The notes beneath the pieces were generated by a model. It saw only the letters and a list, made by a program, of their open reading frames with translations, ran no database searches and was not told the origin of the DNA. From Kangiella geojedonensis (GTDB lineage: Bacteria > Pseudomonadota > Gammaproteobacteria > Enterobacterales > Kangiellaceae): a stretch of 64,000 nt of DNA. Below, piece by piece: positions 17,490 to 25,190 of this stretch. The DNA is taken from NCBI RefSeq assembly GCF_000981765.1, contig NZ_CP010975.1, positions 1,054,001 through 1,118,000 on the forward strand, given 5' to 3'. Both the position numbers and the translations under genes were made by a program. Position 1 is the first letter of the stretch. Each line of letters opens with the position of its first letter.

Positions 17490-18776
17490 TTAATAGTGCT
17501 TCGCTTGGCCTTGGCCTGTAACAACGTATTTTTCCGTTGTTAGTTGGACTAGGCCCATTGGTCCGTAGGCGTGTAGTTTACTGGTTGAGATACCAATTTC
17601 TGCACCTAGACCAAGTTCGCCACCGTCTGAGAAGCGTGATGAAGCGTTAACCATCACAACAGACGAGTTGATGCGTTTTACGAATTCGTTACCACGGTCG
17701 ATATCTTTAGTGACGATGACTTCAGTGTGGCTTGAGCTGTGATTTTGAATATGCTCAATAGCTGCTTCGTAAGAGTCAGCTTGTGACACACTCATGGCTA
17801 GGCTCAAGTATTCGTTGTGGTAGTCTTCAGGGTTTGCAACTTCGGCGTTATCCAACTTGCTGGCAGAGTCTTTGTCTGCTTTGAACTGGATGCCGAATTC
17901 GTTGCCTAGTGCGTTGACACGCTTAAGGAATTCTTCAGCGATGTCTTTGTGGATCACTAAACTTTCTAGCGAGTTACAAACGCCTGGGCGCGATACTTTA
18001 CCGTCTTTAAGCAATTTCTCTGCTTTGTCTAAGTCAGCATATTTGTCGACGTATAAGTGGCACACGCCTTTAAAGTGCTGAATCACTGGAATCTTACTGT
18101 TGTCCGTTACCGCTTGAATCAAGCGCTCGCCACCACGTGGGATCACGAGATCAATGGTGTCACGGAACTGGAGCAGGTGATTCACAGCTGAGTGGCTTTG
18201 TGAAGGCACGATGCAGACCATTTCTTTGCTGAATCCACACGCTTCAATCGCTTGGTGCCAGCAGTCGATAATGGCGTTGTTTGAGTGCCATGCTTCTTTA
18301 CCGCCACGCAGAATAACCACGTTACCGGATTTTAGCGTTAACGCTGCTGCTTCAACGGCAACGTTTGGACGCGCTTCATAAATCATTAGTACGACGCCTA
18401 GTGGAATACGCATCTTAGCGACACGGATGCCGTTAGGGCGTAGGGTGCTTTCACCCATCTCACCCACAGGATCGGCCAGGTTCATCACGTTATGCAGGGC
18501 GCTAACCATGCCGTCGACACGCTCTTCGTCAAGCAATAGACGGTCGACCATAGCGTCTGACAAGTCGTTTTCTTTAGCGTACTCAATGTCTTTTTTGTTC
18601 GCTTCAAGAATCTGTGCTTGGTTGGTCTTCAGCTGTTTTGCCATCGCAGCAAGCACGTCGTTCTTTTGGCTACTGGTTAATGTAGCAAGAGTTTTCGCCG
18701 CTTCTTTCGCACGAAGGGTTAAATCATATAACTCTTGCTGTTCTTGATCTTCAAATGAATTCTCTTTCATGTTCAT
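17490..18776 (-). CDS. proA: gamma-glutamyl phosphate reductase
   Basis: A 428-residue NADPH-dependent aldehyde dehydrogenase-fold enzyme that makes glutamate-5-semialdehyde in proline synthesis. Family segments are IPLGVVLMIYEARPNVAVEAAALTLKSGN (split around 125-155), the IPRGGERLI block and the catalytic cysteine in SRPGVCNSLESLV, with NASSRFSDGGELGLGAEIGIST near the C-terminus. It begins 19 bp after the first proB, so the two are co-transcribed. The N-terminal 15 residues (MNMKENSFEDQEQQE) are poorly conserved, so the exact start is less sure. Confidence 0.96.
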   Translation of the reverse strand: MNMKENSFEDQEQQELYDLTLRAKEAAKTLATLTSSQKNDVLAAMAKQLKTNQAQILEANKKDIEYAKENDLSDAMVDRLLLDEERVDGMVSALHNVMNLADPVGEMGESTLRPNGIRVAKMRIPLGVVLMIYEARPNVAVEAAALTLKSGNVVILRGGKEAWHSNNAIIDCWHQAIEACGFSKEMVCIVPSQSHSAVNHLLQFRDTIDLVIPRGGERLIQAVTDNSKIPVIQHFKGVCHLYVDKYADLDKAEKLLKDGKVSRPGVCNSLESLVIHKDIAEEFLKRVNALGNEFGIQFKADKDSASKLDNAEVANPEDYHNEYLSLAMSVSQADSYEAAIEHIQNHSSSHTEVIVTKDIDRGNEFVKRINSSVVMVNASSRFSDGGELGLGAEIGISTSKLHAYGPMGLVQLTTEKYVVTGQGQAKHY

Positions 18777-18795
18777 AATTACTCCTAAAAATCTC

Positions 18796-19605
18796 CTACG
18801 CGACTTCTACTTCGTCTTTCTCAGCGGTGTTGCGAACTAATGTACCTGGGTTCTGATTACTGAATAGACGCATGTAACTTTCGTTTGTACCGTTACAAAT
18901 AATCGTATCAATACCATTCTCCGAGGCGAACTTCGCAGCTTTAAGCTTGGTACGCATACCACCAGTACCTTGTGCGCTGGTGCTTTGCTTACCCATCGCT
19001 AGAGCTTCTTCGCTGATGCCTTCAAATTGATTCACTAATTCGGCGTCTGGGTTTACTTTCGGGTTGTCATCGTAAACACCGTCGATGTCACTACAAATAA
19101 TCAGTAGATCCGCATCTGTTAGTGCTGCAACTTGTGCAACGAGGTTATCGTTGTCACCAACCGTGAGCTCTTCCGTCGCTACCGTATCGTTTTCGTTCAC
19201 AATCGGTAGGGCGCCGAGTTCTTCAAGTGTTTTGAATGTATTACGTGCGTTTTGAGCACGCTCAGGATTTTTAATGTCTGCTGAAGTTAGTAATACCTGG
19301 GCTACAACATCGTCAAAGAAACGTTGCCAGTGAGCGACGACCATAGACTGACCGACAGCTGCAAGAGGCTGCTTCTCTTTACGAGTAAGTTTGTCGTAAT
19401 CAGGCTTTAGCAAGTTGAAACCTGCTGCTACGGCTCCTGATGATACCAGCGTGACTTGCTTACCAGCTTTGCGGCACTTTCTAACAAAGTGGGCAATAGG
19501 TAGGCAGTACTCTGCTGAGCAGGAGTGACCGTCTGGCGCAATAAGCGCTGAGCCAACTTTAACGACGATGTTGTTGTAATTACCAAATTCGATATGTTCG
19601 AGCAT
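18796..19605 (-). CDS. proB: glutamate 5-kinase, first copy (no PUA domain)
   Basis: A 269-residue amino-acid kinase fold protein that phosphorylates glutamate, the feedback-controlled first step of proline synthesis. Motifs: IVVKVGSALI, VSSGAVAAGFNLL, IVNENDTVATEEL, GDNDNLVAQVAAL, IICSDIDGVYDDNP and GTGGMRTKLKAAK. It ends after the kinase domain, so it lacks the C-terminal PUA domain of the roughly 367-residue E. coli enzyme. Proline inhibition in PUA-less enzymes does occur in the family, so this does not imply loss of feedback. A full paralogue lies 384 bp upstream. Confidence 0.95.
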   Translation of the reverse strand: MLEHIEFGNYNNIVVKVGSALIAPDGHSCSAEYCLPIAHFVRKCRKAGKQVTLVSSGAVAAGFNLLKPDYDKLTRKEKQPLAAVGQSMVVAHWQRFFDDVVAQVLLTSADIKNPERAQNARNTFKTLEELGALPIVNENDTVATEELTVGDNDNLVAQVAALTDADLLIICSDIDGVYDDNPKVNPDAELVNQFEGISEEALAMGKQSTSAQGTGGMRTKLKAAKFASENGIDTIICNGTNESYMRLFSNQNPGTLVRNTAEKDEVEVA

Positions 19606-19664
19606 GAAATGACCTTTCTCTTTTAAAGGATTAATGTATGACGAGTTAAAAGTGACGTGGCGTG

Positions 19665-19793
19665 CTAGAACACGTTACCCAAGCGCAAGGCTTGTTTTCT
19701 AATCTTAGACATAATCGGACTTGGCTGGCCTGAAATGCCTGCCGTGGAAAGTGTCGCTATGTCTTTTCGATTAATGTTAAGCACGGTTCGCAT
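19665..19793 (-). CDS. putative leader ORF upstream of the first proB
   Basis: A 42-codon ORF (ATG 19793, TAG 19667-19665) in the proB leader, with AAGGA 14 bases before the ATG. It contains GISGQPSPI and later KQALRLGNVF, which can be lined up with GLPGLPMPF and KQTGLRTQLSNTF of the leader before the second proB. It has two proline codons (CCA, CCG) and no strong terminator behind it; the best candidate is a mismatched GTAACGTG/CACGTCAC stem followed by TTTT. It may be a decayed leader. It could also be chance. Confidence 0.3.
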   Translation of the reverse strand: MRTVLNINRKDIATLSTAGISGQPSPIMSKIRKQALRLGNVF

Positions 19794-19819
19794 TATTATG
19801 ATAGAGATCCTTATGTCAA
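19792..19819 (-). promoter_or_regulatory. candidate promoter for the first proB
   Basis: On the minus strand TTGACA (19819-19814), a 16-bp spacer and AATAAT (19797-19792) precede proB by about 180 nt. Transcription from here would start downstream of the ATG at 19793, so it would not express the leader ORF from that start. Confidence 0.45.
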
Positions 19820-19876
19820 ATCTGACTCGAAAAAATTTTGTGAGACGCTCTGAGCGCCTATTAGCGCTTAAAACCT

Positions 19877-19904
19877 TATATAACTGGGGGGTATGTTGGC
19901 TCAA
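19877..19904 (-). promoter_or_regulatory. alternative upstream promoter for leader ORF and first proB
   Basis: On the minus strand TTGAGC (19904-19899), a 16-bp spacer and TATATA (19882-19877). A transcript from near 19870 would include the whole 42-codon leader ORF. It competes with the stronger-looking TTGACA box at 19819. Confidence 0.35.
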
Positions 19905-19989
19905 AAGAACACATCTTATCTCCACAGCTCGTTATATCTCAGCGATTTCACACAATTTCAAAAATAATTAGAAATAACAATAGCTTATA

Positions 19990-20817
19990 CTAAAGATTAG
20001 AATTTCTAATGCTTTTGCCTGAGTTTAGGTTCAATGACTTATGTGAACGTATCCAGGTACCAGGGTTATAGTGATGAATAAGCTGATGGTAGGCTTCTGT
20101 TTTACCGTTGCAGATAATCGTGTCTATTCCTTCGTCACTGGCAATATGCGCCGCTGATAATTTAGTCATCATGCCTCCAGTGGCCTGTGGGTTGTGGCTC
20201 GACTGCCCTAGCTTCATGATATCGTCATTGAGCTCTTCGATGATTGGTAACAACTCAGCCTGTGGATTCGTATGAGGGTTATCATTAAAAACGCCATCAA
20301 CATCACTGCAAATAAGCAGTAAGTCAGCATCGATTAATGATGCCACTTGAGCCGCTAGTCGATCATTGTCGCCAAACTTTAACTCATCTACCGCGACCGT
20401 ATCGTTTTCATTAATGATCGGTAATACGCTGTACTCATGGAGTGTGAATAGGGTACGCTTGGCGTTGGCTGAGCGGTGACTGCTTTGGATATCAGCTGCT
20501 GTTAATAGCACTTGTGCCACATGTTCATCGAAGAAGCGTTGCCAGTGGTTAATGACTTTAGATTGTCCAATGGCAGCTAATGCTTGCTTTTCATTGAGTG
20601 ATAAGTTGTCGTGCTTAGGCTTTAGGGTATTAAACCCAGCAGCTACAGCACCGGAGCTGATGAGCGTGACCTTTTTAGCACTGTGTTGACACTTCTTAAT
20701 GAAGTTGGCGAGCGACAAGCAATATTGAGTCGAGCAGGAGTGACCATCCGGAGCGACTAAAGCCGAGCCCACCTTAATCACGATATTATTGTACTGCGTA
20801 AAATCGATGCGATTCAT
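19990..20817 (-). CDS. proB: glutamate 5-kinase, second copy (no PUA domain)
   Basis: A 275-residue paralogue of the neighbouring proB, aligned over its whole length with the same motifs: IVIKVGSALVAPDGHSCS, LISSGAVAAGFNTL, IINENDTVAVDEL, GDNDRLAAQVASL, LICSDVDGVFNDNP and ATGGMMTKLSAAH. Catalytic positions look intact, so it is probably active. The last 20 residues are basic and serine-rich, unlike copy 1. It is preceded by an intrinsic terminator and a proline-codon leader ORF (20874-21064), suggesting separate control from copy 1. The 384-bp gap before copy 1 contains promoters, so the two copies may be independent units. Confidence 0.93.
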   Translation of the reverse strand: MNRIDFTQYNNIVIKVGSALVAPDGHSCSTQYCLSLANFIKKCQHSAKKVTLISSGAVAAGFNTLKPKHDNLSLNEKQALAAIGQSKVINHWQRFFDEHVAQVLLTAADIQSSHRSANAKRTLFTLHEYSVLPIINENDTVAVDELKFGDNDRLAAQVASLIDADLLLICSDVDGVFNDNPHTNPQAELLPIIEELNDDIMKLGQSSHNPQATGGMMTKLSAAHIASDEGIDTIICNGKTEAYHQLIHHYNPGTWIRSHKSLNLNSGKSIRNSNL

Positions 20818-20873
20818 TTCTGTGACCTTGTGTCTTTTTTCTCTTGTTAAAGCTTTCAGTTTTTTTCAGGCAA

Positions 20874-20907
20874 TAAAAAAGCCCGCGAAGCGAGGCTTGC
20901 GAGCTTT
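20874..20907 (-). terminator. intrinsic terminator inside the leader of the second proB (putative attenuator)
   Basis: On the minus strand AAAGCTCGCAAGC pairs with GCTTCGCGGGCTTT (13 bp, one bulged C, one G-U) around a 3-nt CTC loop, and TTTTTT follows. It lies 57 bp upstream of the proB start and 19 bp downstream of the leader ORF stop, so it must be read through for proB to be expressed from the upstream promoter. Its left arm (20901-20893) can instead pair over 9 bp with 20987-20979 in the leader ORF. Confidence 0.75.
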
Positions 20908-20926
20908 AATGCGTAATTAATGTCGT

Positions 20927-21064
20927 TTAAAGTATTTGGTTAAAGAAACTTACCTTAAACGTATTACTTAGTTGCGTGCGCAAACCTGTCTGCTTCCCAG
21001 TGGGGAAGGGCATGGGTAGACCGGGAAGGCCATTGATTAAATTTACGCTAACAACATCATTCAT
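20927..21064 (-). CDS. putative proline leader peptide of the second proB
   Basis: A 45-codon ORF (ATG 21064, TAA 20929-20927). Residues 12-21 read GLPGLPMPFP with prolines at 14, 17, 19 and 21, all four encoded by CCC. AGGA lies 10 bases before the ATG. A weak TTGCCA/GATATT promoter (21099-21071, 17-bp spacer) would start at or beside the ATG. Downstream come a 9-nt segment able to pair with the terminator arm (20987-20979), the stop, then the terminator. Placed directly before a proline biosynthesis gene, it looks like a classical attenuation leader. No homologue is known to me. Confidence 0.5.
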   Translation of the reverse strand: MNDVVSVNLINGLPGLPMPFPTGKQTGLRTQLSNTFKVSFFNQIL

Positions 21065-21140
21065 AGGTTAAATATCCTATAAGTGACGGTATTTGGCAAT
21101 GAATAATTGGTTATATCGAGCTAGACTTTATGATCACTTA

Positions 21141-21172
21141 AGAAAAAGGCGCCGATTGGCGCCTTCTTATTC
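21141..21172 (-). terminator. terminator of the prolyl oligopeptidase gene
   Basis: On the minus strand AAGGCGCC-AATC-GGCGCCTTTTT, an 8-bp GC-rich stem plus T run, 10 bp after the stop codon. It separates this gene from the proB leader. Confidence 0.87.
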
Positions 21173-21181
21173 GTACGTTGA

Positions 21182-23296
21182 TTAATCCATCAATTGATCA
21201 GCAAGGTAAGTATAAACTAAGGCATTTAACTTAGCTGTCTGTTCGTTGTTAGCTGCGCCGCCATGACCACCTTCAGTGTTTTCATAGTAAAGAAGATCGT
21301 GACCTTGGCTCATCATCTTGGCAACCATTTTGCGTGCGTGACCTGGATGTACTCGGTCATCACGAGTTGATGTGGTGAAGAAGATTTTTGGATAATCAAC
21401 GTCTTTATGGACATTGTGATACGGCGAGTAAGTTTTAATGTAGTTCCACTCGTCTTCATTATCAGGGTTACCATATTCACCCATCCAGCTTGCGCCAGCT
21501 AATAGTTGGTTGAAACGCTTCATGTCAAGTAATGGAACCTGACAAACTACCGCTTCATACAAGTCCGGACGCATAGTGGCAACCGTACCGACCAGCAAAC
21601 CACCATTACTACCGCCTCGAATACCAAGATGCTTGTTGTCAGTGACTTTGGTTTCAATCAAATGCTCAGCGACGGTAATGAAGTCGTTAAAAGCAATATG
21701 ACGGTTTTTCTTTAACGCTGCTTGGTGCCATCTTGGACCGTACTCACCACCACCACGAATATTGGCTAAGGCGTAAACGCCACCTTGTTCGAGCCAGTCG
21801 ATACCGACAGTTGCTGAATAACTAGGTCGTAGCGACACTTCGAAACCACCGTAACCGTACAGTAGCGTAGGGTTTTTGCCATTTAGTTTCGTGTCTTTTG
21901 CCATGACGAGGAAGTATGGAACTTTGGTTCCGTCTTTGGCTTCAGCAAATTTTTGCTCAACTTTATAAGGTGAAGCGTCAAAGAATGCTGGTAAGCTTTT
22001 CAACACGCTAGCCGAATCTTTTTCAGCATCAAAGTAATACAAGCTACTAGGCGTTAGAAAGTTCTGGTAGTTGATGAAGAAGTTATTGTGTTCATCACTG
22101 GTGCCAGTAACCGATAAAGTACCCAACTCAGGCATGTCGATCTTTTCGTGAGACCATTTACCATCTTTAAACGTATAACGGTACAACTCACTGCTCACAT
22201 CTTTCAGAGTTGTAATTAATACATGGTCTTTAGTGCTCGAAACGCTAGCGATTGATGTGCTTGCATCAGGCACAAGGACCTCAGTGAAATTTTTCTTGCC
22301 TGAAATATACTCATCCATAGCAATAGAGAGTAGTGATGCTTGCTTATAGGTCTTATCGCCCACAGTCCAGTCTGACTTAAGTTCTAGCAATAATTGACCA
22401 TTGATAATTCCACTAAAGCTACTGTCCTTAGGGCGGTCCAGTTTTTGTAGCCCATCGTTAGTTTTGAGGTAAATTTCGGAGGTGTAAAAGTCTAGTCCCT
22501 GGTAGATGATTTGGTATTTATCATCTCCATCATGAGCAACCATGCCAGCTACCCAGACGTCTTTTTGCTCGCCTTCAAATACCGTCTTAGCTTTTTCGAT
22601 AGGCTGGCCACGTTCCCAAACTTTTACAATACGAGGGTAGCCAGAGTCCGTCATACTGCCTTCACCAAAGTCAGTGCCGACATATAGCGTGTCTTTATCA
22701 ATCCAGCTTAAGTTACTTTTAGCTTCTGGGAGTTGGAAGCCATCTTTGACGAAACTTTTTGATTCGATATCAAACTCACGAACCACGGTTGCATCAGCGC
22801 CACCGCGAGATAAGTTTATTAAACAACGATCAAAGGATGGGTAGAGACAGTTAGAGCCTTTGTAAACCCAGTTCTCATCTTCTTTTTCAGCAAGTTCATC
22901 CAAGTTTAAGATGATTTCCCACTCAGGATTTTCTTTTTGGTATTCTTCAAGGGTGGTACGACGCCATAAGCCGCGAGGGTTTTCGTCATCACGCCAGAAG
23001 TTGTAAAAGTAGTCACCCATTTGACCGACGTAAGGAATACGTTCGTCTGAGTTGTATACTTCCAAGTTCTTTTCATACAGTTCTTTGTACAAAGGCTTTG
23101 ACATTAAGTAGCCGAGTGACTTTTCATTTTGCTCTTCGACCCAGTTCAAGGCTTTTTCGCCACCTACATCTTCTAACCAAATGTAAGGATCATCGACTTT
23201 AGATGCTTTTTGCGTATCTTTCGCCATACTTTGTGTCATAACCCCCACCGACGCGACCGAGCCAATAAACAGGCTCGTAATCAGTCTTTTGTTCAT
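21182..23296 (-). CDS. secreted prolyl oligopeptidase (S9A)
   Basis: A 704-residue serine peptidase that cleaves short peptides after proline. The N-terminus is a signal peptide (MNKRLITSLFIGSVASVGVM...SMAK), so the enzyme is periplasmic or secreted. A seven-bladed propeller domain follows (from DPYIWLEDVGGEKAL), then the hydrolase domain with GYGGFEVSLRPSYS, the nucleophile in RGGSNGGLLVG, the acid in TSTRDDRVHPGHARKM and the base in ENTEGGHGGAAN. All of the triad is present. It is a single-gene unit with its own terminator. It fits a protein-degrading lifestyle alongside the M1 and M16 peptidases in this window. Confidence 0.96.
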   Translation of the reverse strand: MNKRLITSLFIGSVASVGVMTQSMAKDTQKASKVDDPYIWLEDVGGEKALNWVEEQNEKSLGYLMSKPLYKELYEKNLEVYNSDERIPYVGQMGDYFYNFWRDDENPRGLWRRTTLEEYQKENPEWEIILNLDELAEKEDENWVYKGSNCLYPSFDRCLINLSRGGADATVVREFDIESKSFVKDGFQLPEAKSNLSWIDKDTLYVGTDFGEGSMTDSGYPRIVKVWERGQPIEKAKTVFEGEQKDVWVAGMVAHDGDDKYQIIYQGLDFYTSEIYLKTNDGLQKLDRPKDSSFSGIINGQLLLELKSDWTVGDKTYKQASLLSIAMDEYISGKKNFTEVLVPDASTSIASVSSTKDHVLITTLKDVSSELYRYTFKDGKWSHEKIDMPELGTLSVTGTSDEHNNFFINYQNFLTPSSLYYFDAEKDSASVLKSLPAFFDASPYKVEQKFAEAKDGTKVPYFLVMAKDTKLNGKNPTLLYGYGGFEVSLRPSYSATVGIDWLEQGGVYALANIRGGGEYGPRWHQAALKKNRHIAFNDFITVAEHLIETKVTDNKHLGIRGGSNGGLLVGTVATMRPDLYEAVVCQVPLLDMKRFNQLLAGASWMGEYGNPDNEDEWNYIKTYSPYHNVHKDVDYPKIFFTTSTRDDRVHPGHARKMVAKMMSQGHDLLYYENTEGGHGGAANNEQTAKLNALVYTYLADQLMD

Positions 23297-23459
23297 ACAA
23301 TGACTCCATTTTGTTAATTAACCGACTGAGAATAGCAAAGGGCAGGGTGATGCGCTAGGATTGAAATGTTTAGAAATATTACAAAAAAATTGAGTAATAA
23401 AAAAGCGCGACACCGTTAAGTGACGCGCTTTAGTAGCAATTGTCAGTTTCGTATAATCG

Positions 23460-25190
23460 TTACTGAGCTTTTTGCAGATCTTCCATTACAGCTGCTAGGA
23501 AGCGAGCTGCCTCACCGCCAGTACAGGCGCGGTGATCGAAGGTTAAGGATAGCGGCAACATTTTTGCGTTAGTGATGCCTTTATCCGTTAGCTTCAACTC
23601 ATTACGGAAACGGCCAGTGCCTAGAATCGCGACCTGCGGTGGCGATACCACTGGTGTGCCGTAACGGCCAGCAATTGAACCAAAGTTCGATAGAGTAATC
23701 GTGGCGTTTTGCTGATCGTCCTGTTTTAACGACTTGGTTTCAATCTTCTGGCGAAGTTCTTGAACACGAGCTCGAACATCGACCATACTCATACGGTCTG
23801 CATTGTGAACCACTGGAACGTATAAACCGTCGCCAGAATCCACTGCGATACCAACGTTGACGTTAGGGTGTAATAGACGCTCGAACTTGTCGCCATCGAA
23901 CCATGCGTTAACTGCTGGAACGGCTTTAGCCGCTGTGACTAATGCGCGAACATAACGCGCTAATGAGTCAGTGCCTTTTGGCCATGCTGAGATATCCACA
24001 TCTTCAACCAATGTCGTTGGAACAACGGTTGAGTGAGAGTGTGACATACCCATCGCCATCGCGCGGCGAACACCACGAACTGTTTCCGGTTTAACTTCAA
24101 CGTTCAACGTTGGCAAGCCACCAGTGCTTGATGGAGTGCTCGATGTTGTTGAGCTTGTTTGTGGTTGAGCTGATTGGCTAGAAGCTGGCGCAGAGCCACC
24201 TTTAGAAGCACTCTCAACGTCATCACGCGTAATGGAGCCTTTGCGGCCTGACGCTTGGCAGTTTCCTAAATCAACACCAAGCTTACGGGCTAGTGCGCGT
24301 ACTGCTGGTGAGGCTCTGTAAGCCAAAGGATTACTCGTATCGAAACCAGACTCTTGGCTCGCAGCTGGAGCTGATCCTGTCTTAGCTGTGCTAGAACCGT
24401 TTTTAGCAGCTTCACGCACATCTTTTTGCGTGATAGCGCCGTCTTTGCCAGTTCCTGTGACTTGCGTCAGGTCAACTTTTAGTTTGCGAGCTAATGCTTT
24501 AACTACTGAGTTCGTGGTTTCAGCAACAACGTTGTTACCAACTTCAACGGCGCCTACAACGGTTCCGCTGTCAGCACGCTTTTCTTCACCAGCTTCTTTT
24601 TTAGGAGCTGGCTTTTTCGAGCTAGAGCCAGAACCACCGAACTCAACTAATGGATCGCCGGTGTTGATAACATCACCAGCCTGACCGTACAACTTAGAAA
24701 TCTTTGCGGCGAATGGCGAAGGAACTTCTACCACAGCCTTTGCTGTTTCCATTTCGACCATTGGCTGATCTACAGTCACGGTATCGCCTTCTTTAACTAA
24801 CCAGCGAACGATTTCTGCGTCAGGTAAGCCTTCACCTAAGTCCGGTAGCATGAAAGTATCACCAACCACATCATCCGATGACGTTTCCGCTGATGCTTCT
24901 GAGTCGGAGCTTTGTGCCGGTGCAGTACTTTCTTGTGAAACGTCGTCTTCTACTGCGCCGTCACCAAAGCTGACAAGCAAGTCGCCAGTATTGATTACGT
25001 CGCCTTCTTGACCGTGTAATTTAGCGATACGACCAGCAAAAGGAGAGGGCACTTCGACCACAGCCTTTGCCGTTTCCATTTCAACCATAGGTTGGTCAAC
25101 AGTTACGGTATCGCCTTCTTTAACTAACCAGCGAACGATTTCCGCATCCGGTAAACCTTCGCCTAAATCGGGTAAATTGAACTGTTTCAT
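23460..25190 (-). CDS. 2-oxo-acid dehydrogenase E2 with two lipoyl and two E3-binding domains
   Basis: A 576-residue acyltransferase core. Two lipoyl domains (about 1-78 and 113-187, lipoyl lysines 42 and 151 in ETAKAVVEVPSP) are nearly identical in protein and DNA. Two peripheral-subunit-binding domains follow (VVKALARKLKVDL near 229 and AVRALARKLGVDL near 296). The catalytic domain ends FDHRACTGGEAARF: His553 is present, but the usual DHRxxDG aspartate is Thr557. It overlaps the E1 beta stop by 4 bp. Substrate is branched-chain 2-oxo acids or pyruvate; sequence alone does not decide. No E3 gene is nearby. Confidence 0.93.
   Translation of the reverse strand: MKQFNLPDLGEGLPDAEIVRWLVKEGDTVTVDQPMVEMETAKAVVEVPSPFAGRIAKLHGQEGDVINTGDLLVSFGDGAVEDDVSQESTAPAQSSDSEASAETSSDDVVGDTFMLPDLGEGLPDAEIVRWLVKEGDTVTVDQPMVEMETAKAVVEVPSPFAAKISKLYGQAGDVINTGDPLVEFGGSGSSSKKPAPKKEAGEEKRADSGTVVGAVEVGNNVVAETTNSVVKALARKLKVDLTQVTGTGKDGAITQKDVREAAKNGSSTAKTGSAPAASQESGFDTSNPLAYRASPAVRALARKLGVDLGNCQASGRKGSITRDDVESASKGGSAPASSQSAQPQTSSTTSSTPSSTGGLPTLNVEVKPETVRGVRRAMAMGMSHSHSTVVPTTLVEDVDISAWPKGTDSLARYVRALVTAAKAVPAVNAWFDGDKFERLLHPNVNVGIAVDSGDGLYVPVVHNADRMSMVDVRARVQELRQKIETKSLKQDDQQNATITLSNFGSIAGRYGTPVVSPPQVAILGTGRFRNELKLTDKGITNAKMLPLSLTFDHRACTGGEAARFLAAVMEDLQKAQ

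Follow-up and report, generated by a model that had tools for sequence, protein, structure and literature searches.

A predicted proline leader-peptide attenuator upstream of proB in Kangiella geojedonensis

Classical attenuators in proteobacteria control the trp, his, leu, ilv, thr and phe operons, and proline synthesis in Gram-negative bacteria is usually taught as a case of enzyme feedback inhibition. T-box leaders bind tRNA directly and do not need a translated open reading frame (ORF). Here, we analyze a 64,000-nt stretch of the Kangiella geojedonensis chromosome (the window; NZ_CP010975.1, positions 1,054,001 to 1,118,000), where a minus-strand ORF with clustered proline codons and an intrinsic terminator precede proB, and we propose that they form a leader-peptide attenuator. 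Three described systems come closest. In Bacillus, proBA and proI carry T-box leaders (RF00230), and proline starvation is reported to raise proBA expression via tRNA-Pro (PMC3858371). In Salmonella, mgtA and mgtCBR are preceded by short ORFs rich in proline codons, with alternative structures and control by charged tRNA-Pro, as described in PMC3641672. In Sinorhizobium meliloti, the trpL attenuator RNA is described as having its 5′ end at the leader ORF's start codon (PMC7298713).

The elements of the proB leader are the following, in window coordinates:

21071-21099, minus strand: putative promoter, with a -35 box TTGCCA, a spacing of 17 nt and a -10 box GATATT that ends 6 nt 5′ of the leader ATG
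21064-20927, minus strand: leader ORF of 45 codons and a stop (MNDVVSVNLINGLPGLPMPFPTGKQTGLRTQLSNTFKVSFFNQIL), delimited by the ORF list, its conservation and the promoter position
21048-21039, minus strand: segment 1, the protector (GCGTAAATTT / GCGUAAAUUU), from the minimum-energy fold and the alignment fold
21002-21025, minus strand: control codons, CCC at codons 14, 17, 19 and 21
21008-20993, minus strand: accessory hairpin CTTCCC/GGGAAG over the last proline codons, not conserved in sequence
20987-20978, minus strand: segment 2, the antiterminator strand (AGGTTTGCGC / AGGUUUGCGC), with a 9-bp pairing to segment 3
20961-20924, minus strand: spacer hairpin that contains the leader stop codon (z-score -2.37 in genome G000)
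20901-20893, minus strand: segment 3, the left arm of the terminator (CGCAAGCCU / CGCAAGCCT)
20907-20875, minus strand: intrinsic terminator with its U tract (-15.5 kcal/mol)

An initial annotation had reported a 45-codon ORF with four CCC codons, an intrinsic terminator with TTTTTT between this ORF and proB, and an alternative 9-bp pairing, with one G-U, between the terminator's left arm and AGGUUUGCG (20987-20979). All three were borne out by the sequence; the terminator hairpin and its TTTTTT end 57 nt 5′ of proB (19990-20817). The annotation had also called the promoter weak. It does match the consensus at only 9 of 12 positions, a weakness mitigated by its conserved position: the -10 box of the best sigma-70-like site ends 6–7 nt upstream of the leader's first codon in 15 of the 17 leaders that we compared across genera, the exceptions being G008, where a site at this distance ranks second, and L173, where the distance is 5 nt and the start codon GTG. 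The transcript is predicted to start at the leader start codon or at most two bases away. Over positions 18000-24000, neither promoter-like sites (11, versus 9.2 in shuffled sequences, standard deviation 3.2) nor terminator-like sites (8, versus 5.7, standard deviation 2.3) were more frequent than expected by chance.

The arrangement resembles that of classical amino-acid attenuators in its leader ORF rich in codons for the end product, its protector, antiterminator and terminator pairings, and its intrinsic terminator before the first gene. It differs from them in its amino acid and gene (proline and proB), in control codons that separate segments 1 and 2 instead of forming part of segment 1, in a leader stop codon far past segment 2 and in the probable lack of a 5′ untranslated region. 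As with the Bacillus proBA T-box, proline starvation would raise expression through tRNA-Pro, and unlike there, the window contains no T-box match. A T-box leader was rejected, with no match at the gathering threshold in the window and none with an expectation value (E) up to 1 over 19500-21200. No Rfam family was found over the window (one sub-threshold small RNA match lies on the other strand, E 0.51), and a plasmid search also found nothing. The Salmonella leaders, which precede mgtA and mgtCBR, are described as lacking intrinsic terminators (PMC3641672), unlike the proB leader; a proline ORF of the mgt type was ruled out here by the intrinsic terminator and by the identity of the downstream gene as proB. 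The S. meliloti trpL leader shares the leaderless start at its ORF and differs in that it senses tryptophan, belongs to an alphaproteobacterium and has a start reported in PMC7298713, where that of the proB leader is predicted rather than mapped.

We then compared 20 genomes of the genus, among which 14 carry proB and the same 14 carry proA. A proline ORF and a terminator precede the cluster's first proB, which is the sole proB in G004, in 13 of 13 genomes; the fourteenth, G018, has a single proB with a different upstream element, similar to the stretch between the two proB copies of other genomes, and appears to lack the leader-bearing copy. Each of the 13 leaders has 3–5 prolines, and 40 of their 52 proline codons are CCC, compared to 50 of 616 in 38 long ORFs of the window. 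All 13 terminators have a U tract and folding energies between -13.7 and -19.4 kcal/mol. The leaders form two sequence groups, of seven and five members, plus G004, and proline occupies codons 19 and 21 in 12 of the 13 (codons 7, 12, 15 and 18 in G004). The longest contiguous helix between segments 2 and 3 (2:3) measures 9 bp in six genomes, 8 bp in three, 7 bp in one, 6 bp in two and 4 bp in G009. A search pattern that combined two CCC codons with segments 2 and 3 at the observed spacing matched in 9 of the 20 genomes, each time only before proB (G014 matches twice, with overlap), and a reversed control gave no match; the pattern was derived from these leaders themselves and misses G003, G004, G006 and G009. 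This comparison of ORF, CCC codons and alternative pairings in relatives had been set beforehand as a test of attenuation, and it speaks for the proposal rather than refuting it. The element's parts, along with how they are conserved and spaced, are established by sequence and comparison.

In its minimum-energy fold, the window leader pairs segments 1 and 2 over 10 bp, three of them G-U. When the seven group-1 leaders were folded as an alignment without any imposed structure, both this stem and the terminator emerged, and the same calculation on the five group-2 leaders gave an equivalent protector stem of different sequence. Segment 1 completes the classical set of 1:2, 2:3 and 3:4 pairings. 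In all 13 genus leaders, the minimum-energy fold of the 5′ domain contains a stem with all or part of segment 2. The fold of the whole leader and terminator has a z-score of -3.10, and none of 200 shuffled sequences was equally stable. The 2:3 helix score was matched by 9 of 1000 mononucleotide shuffles in G000 (3–16 of 1000 across the six genomes scored), and the 2:3 duplex energy of the window leader by 2 of 500. Among ten genomes, this energy was reached by 1–27 of 500 shuffles, except in G006 and G009; in G001, G005 and G003, the counts were 413, 295 and 301 because the control began past the very last proline and excluded segment 2.

From these elements, we infer a start site, a translated leader, stalling at proline codons, read-through and an operon that responds to proline. 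It is highly probable that the leader works as a ribosome-mediated transcription attenuator of proB, with charged tRNA-Pro as the signal sensed; the second proB and proA are probably under its control too. Transcription would begin at about the leader ATG, with a ribosome trailing the polymerase. When proline is ample, the ribosome would cross the CCC codons, segment 1 would re-pair with segment 2 behind it, and the terminator would form, keeping proB and the following genes off. When proline is scarce, the ribosome would halt with one of the proline codons, codon 21 at the latest, in its A site; standing between segments 1 and 2, it would block their pairing. Segment 2, lying just past the ribosome's edge, would then capture the left arm of the terminator ahead of synthesis of the right arm, and transcription would proceed into proB.

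The geometry of this mechanism was modeled by folding each leader with the terminator's left arm made and its right arm not yet made, and counting the left-arm bases that paired upstream. The ribosome was placed codon by codon, with the RNA free from 12 nt past the first base of the A-site codon. In all 13 genus leaders, at least 4.2 left-arm bases were paired upstream for every ribosome position between codon 4 and the last clustered proline, and at most 1.3 by the time it had reached codon 28; the pairing of segment 2 with the arm is lost once the ribosome moves beyond about codon 25. In G000, the count is 8.3 at Pro21, 0.7 without a ribosome and 0.1 eight codons later. The contrast between the stalled state and the passed or ribosome-free states was reached by none of 200 dinucleotide shuffles in G000, G014, G001, G005, G002, G019, G006 and L174, by 2–10 in a further six leaders (G011, 2; G009, 4; G013, 4; L173, 8; L172, 9; G008, 10) and by 17, 40 and 43 in G004, L171 and G003, respectively. 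For this test, the last clustered proline was set by hand to codon 21 in G001, G005 and G003.

Of the genome's 41 detected tRNA genes, those for proline have the anticodons TGG and GGG, and CCC is therefore presumably decoded by the GGG tRNA. This tRNA should decode CCT as well as CCC, and the leaders' preference for CCC over CCT may arise partly from RNA pairing; why leaders prefer particular synonymous codons is a general question treated in PMC1183508. A sensor of slow proline peptide bonds, which would respond to EF-P, to the state of the ribosome or to osmotic or magnesium stress via proline rather than to charged tRNA-Pro, is an unlikely alternative. Precedents exist in the proline ORFs of the Salmonella mgt leaders, described as controlling transcription into the coding region (PMC3641672), and in the slowness of consecutive proline codons in a his-leader assay (PMC4046918), and adjacent Pro-Pro codons do occur in leaders L171, L173 and L174. 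However, none of the 13 genus leaders has adjacent prolines, the controlled gene encodes the first enzyme of proline synthesis, and the proB leader has the intrinsic terminator that the mgtCBR and mgtA leaders are said to lack (PMC3641672).

It is more improbable still that the nascent leader peptide itself arrests the ribosome on free proline or another small molecule. The conserved core LPGQP(M/I)P(F/Y) of group 1, with a ratio of nonsynonymous to synonymous changes (pN/pS) of 0.45, would fit such an arrest, but the core of group 2 differs (SLPVPGKS or similar) and has a pN/pS of 1.56. Outside the proline core, pN/pS is 0.75–1.26, as expected if the codons matter and not the peptide. The third base of the aligned proline codons is C in 23 of 24 cases in group 1 and 14 of 19 in group 2, a bias that indicates a codon or RNA constraint, and leaders of other genera have little in common except proline. 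The least credible explanation, that the terminator merely ends the transcript of the upstream oligopeptidase-like gene and that ORF and pairings are fortuitous, draws on the terminator's position between two same-strand genes, but that gene has its own hairpin right past its stop (21146-21165), and ORF, pairings and proline positions are all conserved; across the 20 genus genomes, the search pattern matched at no other place.

Several observations weigh against attenuation by charged tRNA-Pro as we propose it. The leader stop codon (20929-20927) lies about 49 nt past the end of segment 2 (20978), confirming the roughly 50 nt noted in the initial annotation, and a ribosome terminating there would not cover segment 2, as it usually, though not by definition, does in attenuators. 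This concern is eased if, as we suppose, segments 1 and 2 can re-close behind the passing ribosome, with segment 1 taking over the part otherwise played by the terminating ribosome. The CTTCCC/GGGAAG hairpin, to which the annotation had given a central role, is present at 21008-20993, but other hairpins take its place in G001, G005 and G008, and in G009, G004 and group 2 it is either very short or missing; it is therefore not the core of the switch. The 5′ domain has a z-score below -2.5 in only 7 of 13 genomes, and taken alone it is no more stable than shuffled sequences in G000 (-0.44) or G004 (0.11). The 2:3 duplex energy was reached by 53 of 500 shuffles in G006 and, with its 4-bp contiguous helix, by 134 in G009. 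Compensatory changes in the pairings, which had been suggested as a check, were seen only weakly within the genus: both sides changed in 2 of 29 pairs in group 1 and 1 of 38 in group 2, and the covariation terms (+0.69 and +1.52, respectively) are slightly unfavorable. Weak covariation may be expected of a segment that has two pairing partners to satisfy.

In the ribosome-position model, upstream pairing persists without a ribosome in G003 (8.9 bases), G004 (7.5), L171 (6.5), G013 (6.3), G011 (5.0), G008 (4.3) and G014 (4.3), and the first three of these high counts are the main cause of the poor contrast in those leaders. Once segment 2 has been passed, the arm again pairs in part with other sequence, by up to 4.3 bases with the ribosome at codons 32–43 in G000, 4.2 in G008 and 3.1 in G014. 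The count after passage stays at 4.8 in L172 and 4.9 in L173. Outside the genus, two other genera of the family (g3 and g4) yielded no clear terminator-type leader in 12 genomes (0 of 6 in g4; L120 in g3 is borderline), and a third (g5) has one in only 3 of 5.

Beyond the genus, leaders of unrelated sequence and similar plan precede proB in four genomes, which belong to two other genera of the family; two of these leaders are weaker. Their peptides, each ending at a stop codon, are MSIFNCQNSVNAPAPVPPKGGG in G024 (6 contiguous bp with the terminator arm), MTTCNLLPQHPRIIFY in G055 (6 bp) and the weaker VTAFSSISYTDVPPSD in G023 (7 bp; it starts at GTG, and its terminator lies 185 nt upstream of proB) and MNTFNTSLIYRAIPPI in G052 (4 bp). 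By genus, the leader occurs in 13 of 13 genomes here, in 3 of 5 in g5 (at the second proB) and in 1 of 1 in g6. In g3, otherwise unrelated ORFs upstream of proB end in PLVG, PLKG or PLVGN at four of six loci (L120, L121, L122 and L124), their ends falling at a CCCCTTGTGGGT-like motif (e.g. MFICNKKQFISIPSFNPLVG and MINCRLLTHFFVSTLPAPLVG, each before a stop codon). Three of the four contain P-x-P, a hairpin and T run follow soon after only in L120, and the proline ORFs of L120 and L124 have no ATG nearby. It is possible that these ORFs are proline leaders that mostly do without a terminator. Whether the family evolved proline leaders before proB more than once, with unrelated sequences and mostly with transcripts that begin at the leader start, as terminator-based attenuators in three genera and in a largely terminator-free form in a fourth (P-L-x-G ends, 4 of 6), is in our judgment evenly balanced.

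A wider survey used a home-made detector that requires a terminator and a proline ORF, applied to 126 regions upstream of proB (16 loci, a best-scoring 30 and the best 80 proB loci, with four genomes common to the first two sets) and to 30 regions from across the class (the top scorers among 111 proB-bearing genomes). None of the best 80 proB loci bears this genus in its title, and the genus may be missing from the collection they come from; family loci L119-L138 were examined by a simpler scan instead of the detector. A terminator-like site was present in 43 of the 126 regions, a number of which also have an ORF with at least two prolines. Judged by eye, no convincing proline leader was found outside the family in the scanned proB regions (126 and 30), and L192, a candidate from the class-wide set, was dropped on the same judgment. 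Several Paenibacillus-type detector matches resemble T-box terminators; 2 of 10 passed the T-box gathering score and the other 8 are unproven. At L020 (G034, same order), an ORF encoding VTQLRNYHHSTNIPPPQSSSLKN up to its stop, with three adjacent prolines, lies before proB and has no clear terminator.

The genes around the leader, in minus-strand order, are the oligopeptidase-like gene, the leader ORF with its terminator, two proB genes and proA:

21182-23296, minus strand: oligopeptidase-like gene, below NCBIfam cut-offs
19990-20817, minus strand: proB (glutamate 5-kinase, short form), first copy in transcription order (TIGR01027, 2.6e-80, over cut-off)
18796-19605, minus strand: proB, second copy in transcription order (TIGR01027, 1.7e-79, over cut-off)
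17490-18776, minus strand: proA (glutamate-5-semialdehyde dehydrogenase; NF001221, 6.5e-167, over cut-off)

The initial annotation had placed the leader before the second proB, which is right along the plus strand; in transcription order, this is the first copy. The tandem proB genes (18796-20817) are about 60% identical, and each lacks the C-terminal part of the proB profile. Both products align to roughly the first 257 positions of the 363-position profile and no further, and are therefore short forms. Directly past the stop of the oligopeptidase-like gene, from 21165-21146 on, the minus strand reads GGCGCC AATC GGCGCC TTTTT, a hairpin with a T run; the scan for terminator-like sites reports this hairpin on the plus strand. 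The spacer hairpin within the leader has z-scores of -2.37 in G000 and -2.07 in G001, and between -1.23 and -0.02 in the other 11 genomes.

The 300 nt between the proB copies (19600-19899, minus strand) are strongly conserved, with a mean column identity of 78% across 13 genomes. A promoter close to consensus (TTGACA-16-AATAAT, 11 of 12) lies within them, as does a small ORF (VLNIN...VF and a stop). The ORF has 39 codons in eight of the 13 genomes and 38 in G008; it is longer in three and carries a frameshift in G009. By eye, a GGCAGGC/GCCAGCC hairpin seems to hold its pairing through changes, and a clear intrinsic terminator was not seen in this stretch. It may be a second regulatory leader.

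Six of the 20 genus genomes (G007, G010, G012, G015, G016 and G017) lack proB and proA and keep proC; they are perhaps proline auxotrophs or users of another route. A DNA search found no remnant of the leader in genomes without proBA (best E 0.0058 among the matches listed), and it also missed the real group-2 leaders, so this negative says little. As a possible second target, proC was inspected at 20 loci in 19 genomes, and none has a proline leader.

Blunt full-text searches of an open-access library brought up, among the matches listed, no account of leader-peptide attenuation of proB, and the word proline is absent from the main text of an attenuator survey (PMC2965389). The mechanism is a known one; as far as the searched literature goes, the amino acid and operon are new, and the geometry is partly unusual in its predicted leaderless start, its control codons between segments 1 and 2 and its distant stop. 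If correct, the proB leader would be a compact, probably leaderless attenuator whose geometry, with the ribosome's edge at the last proline codon, is directly testable. It would add proline synthesis to the pathways under attenuation and provide a second route to tRNA-Pro sensing, beside the Bacillus T-box (PMC3858371). If the family did evolve such leaders repeatedly, their ribosome-sensed, proline-specific control of proline synthesis would be a Gram-negative counterpart of the Bacillus proBA T-box.
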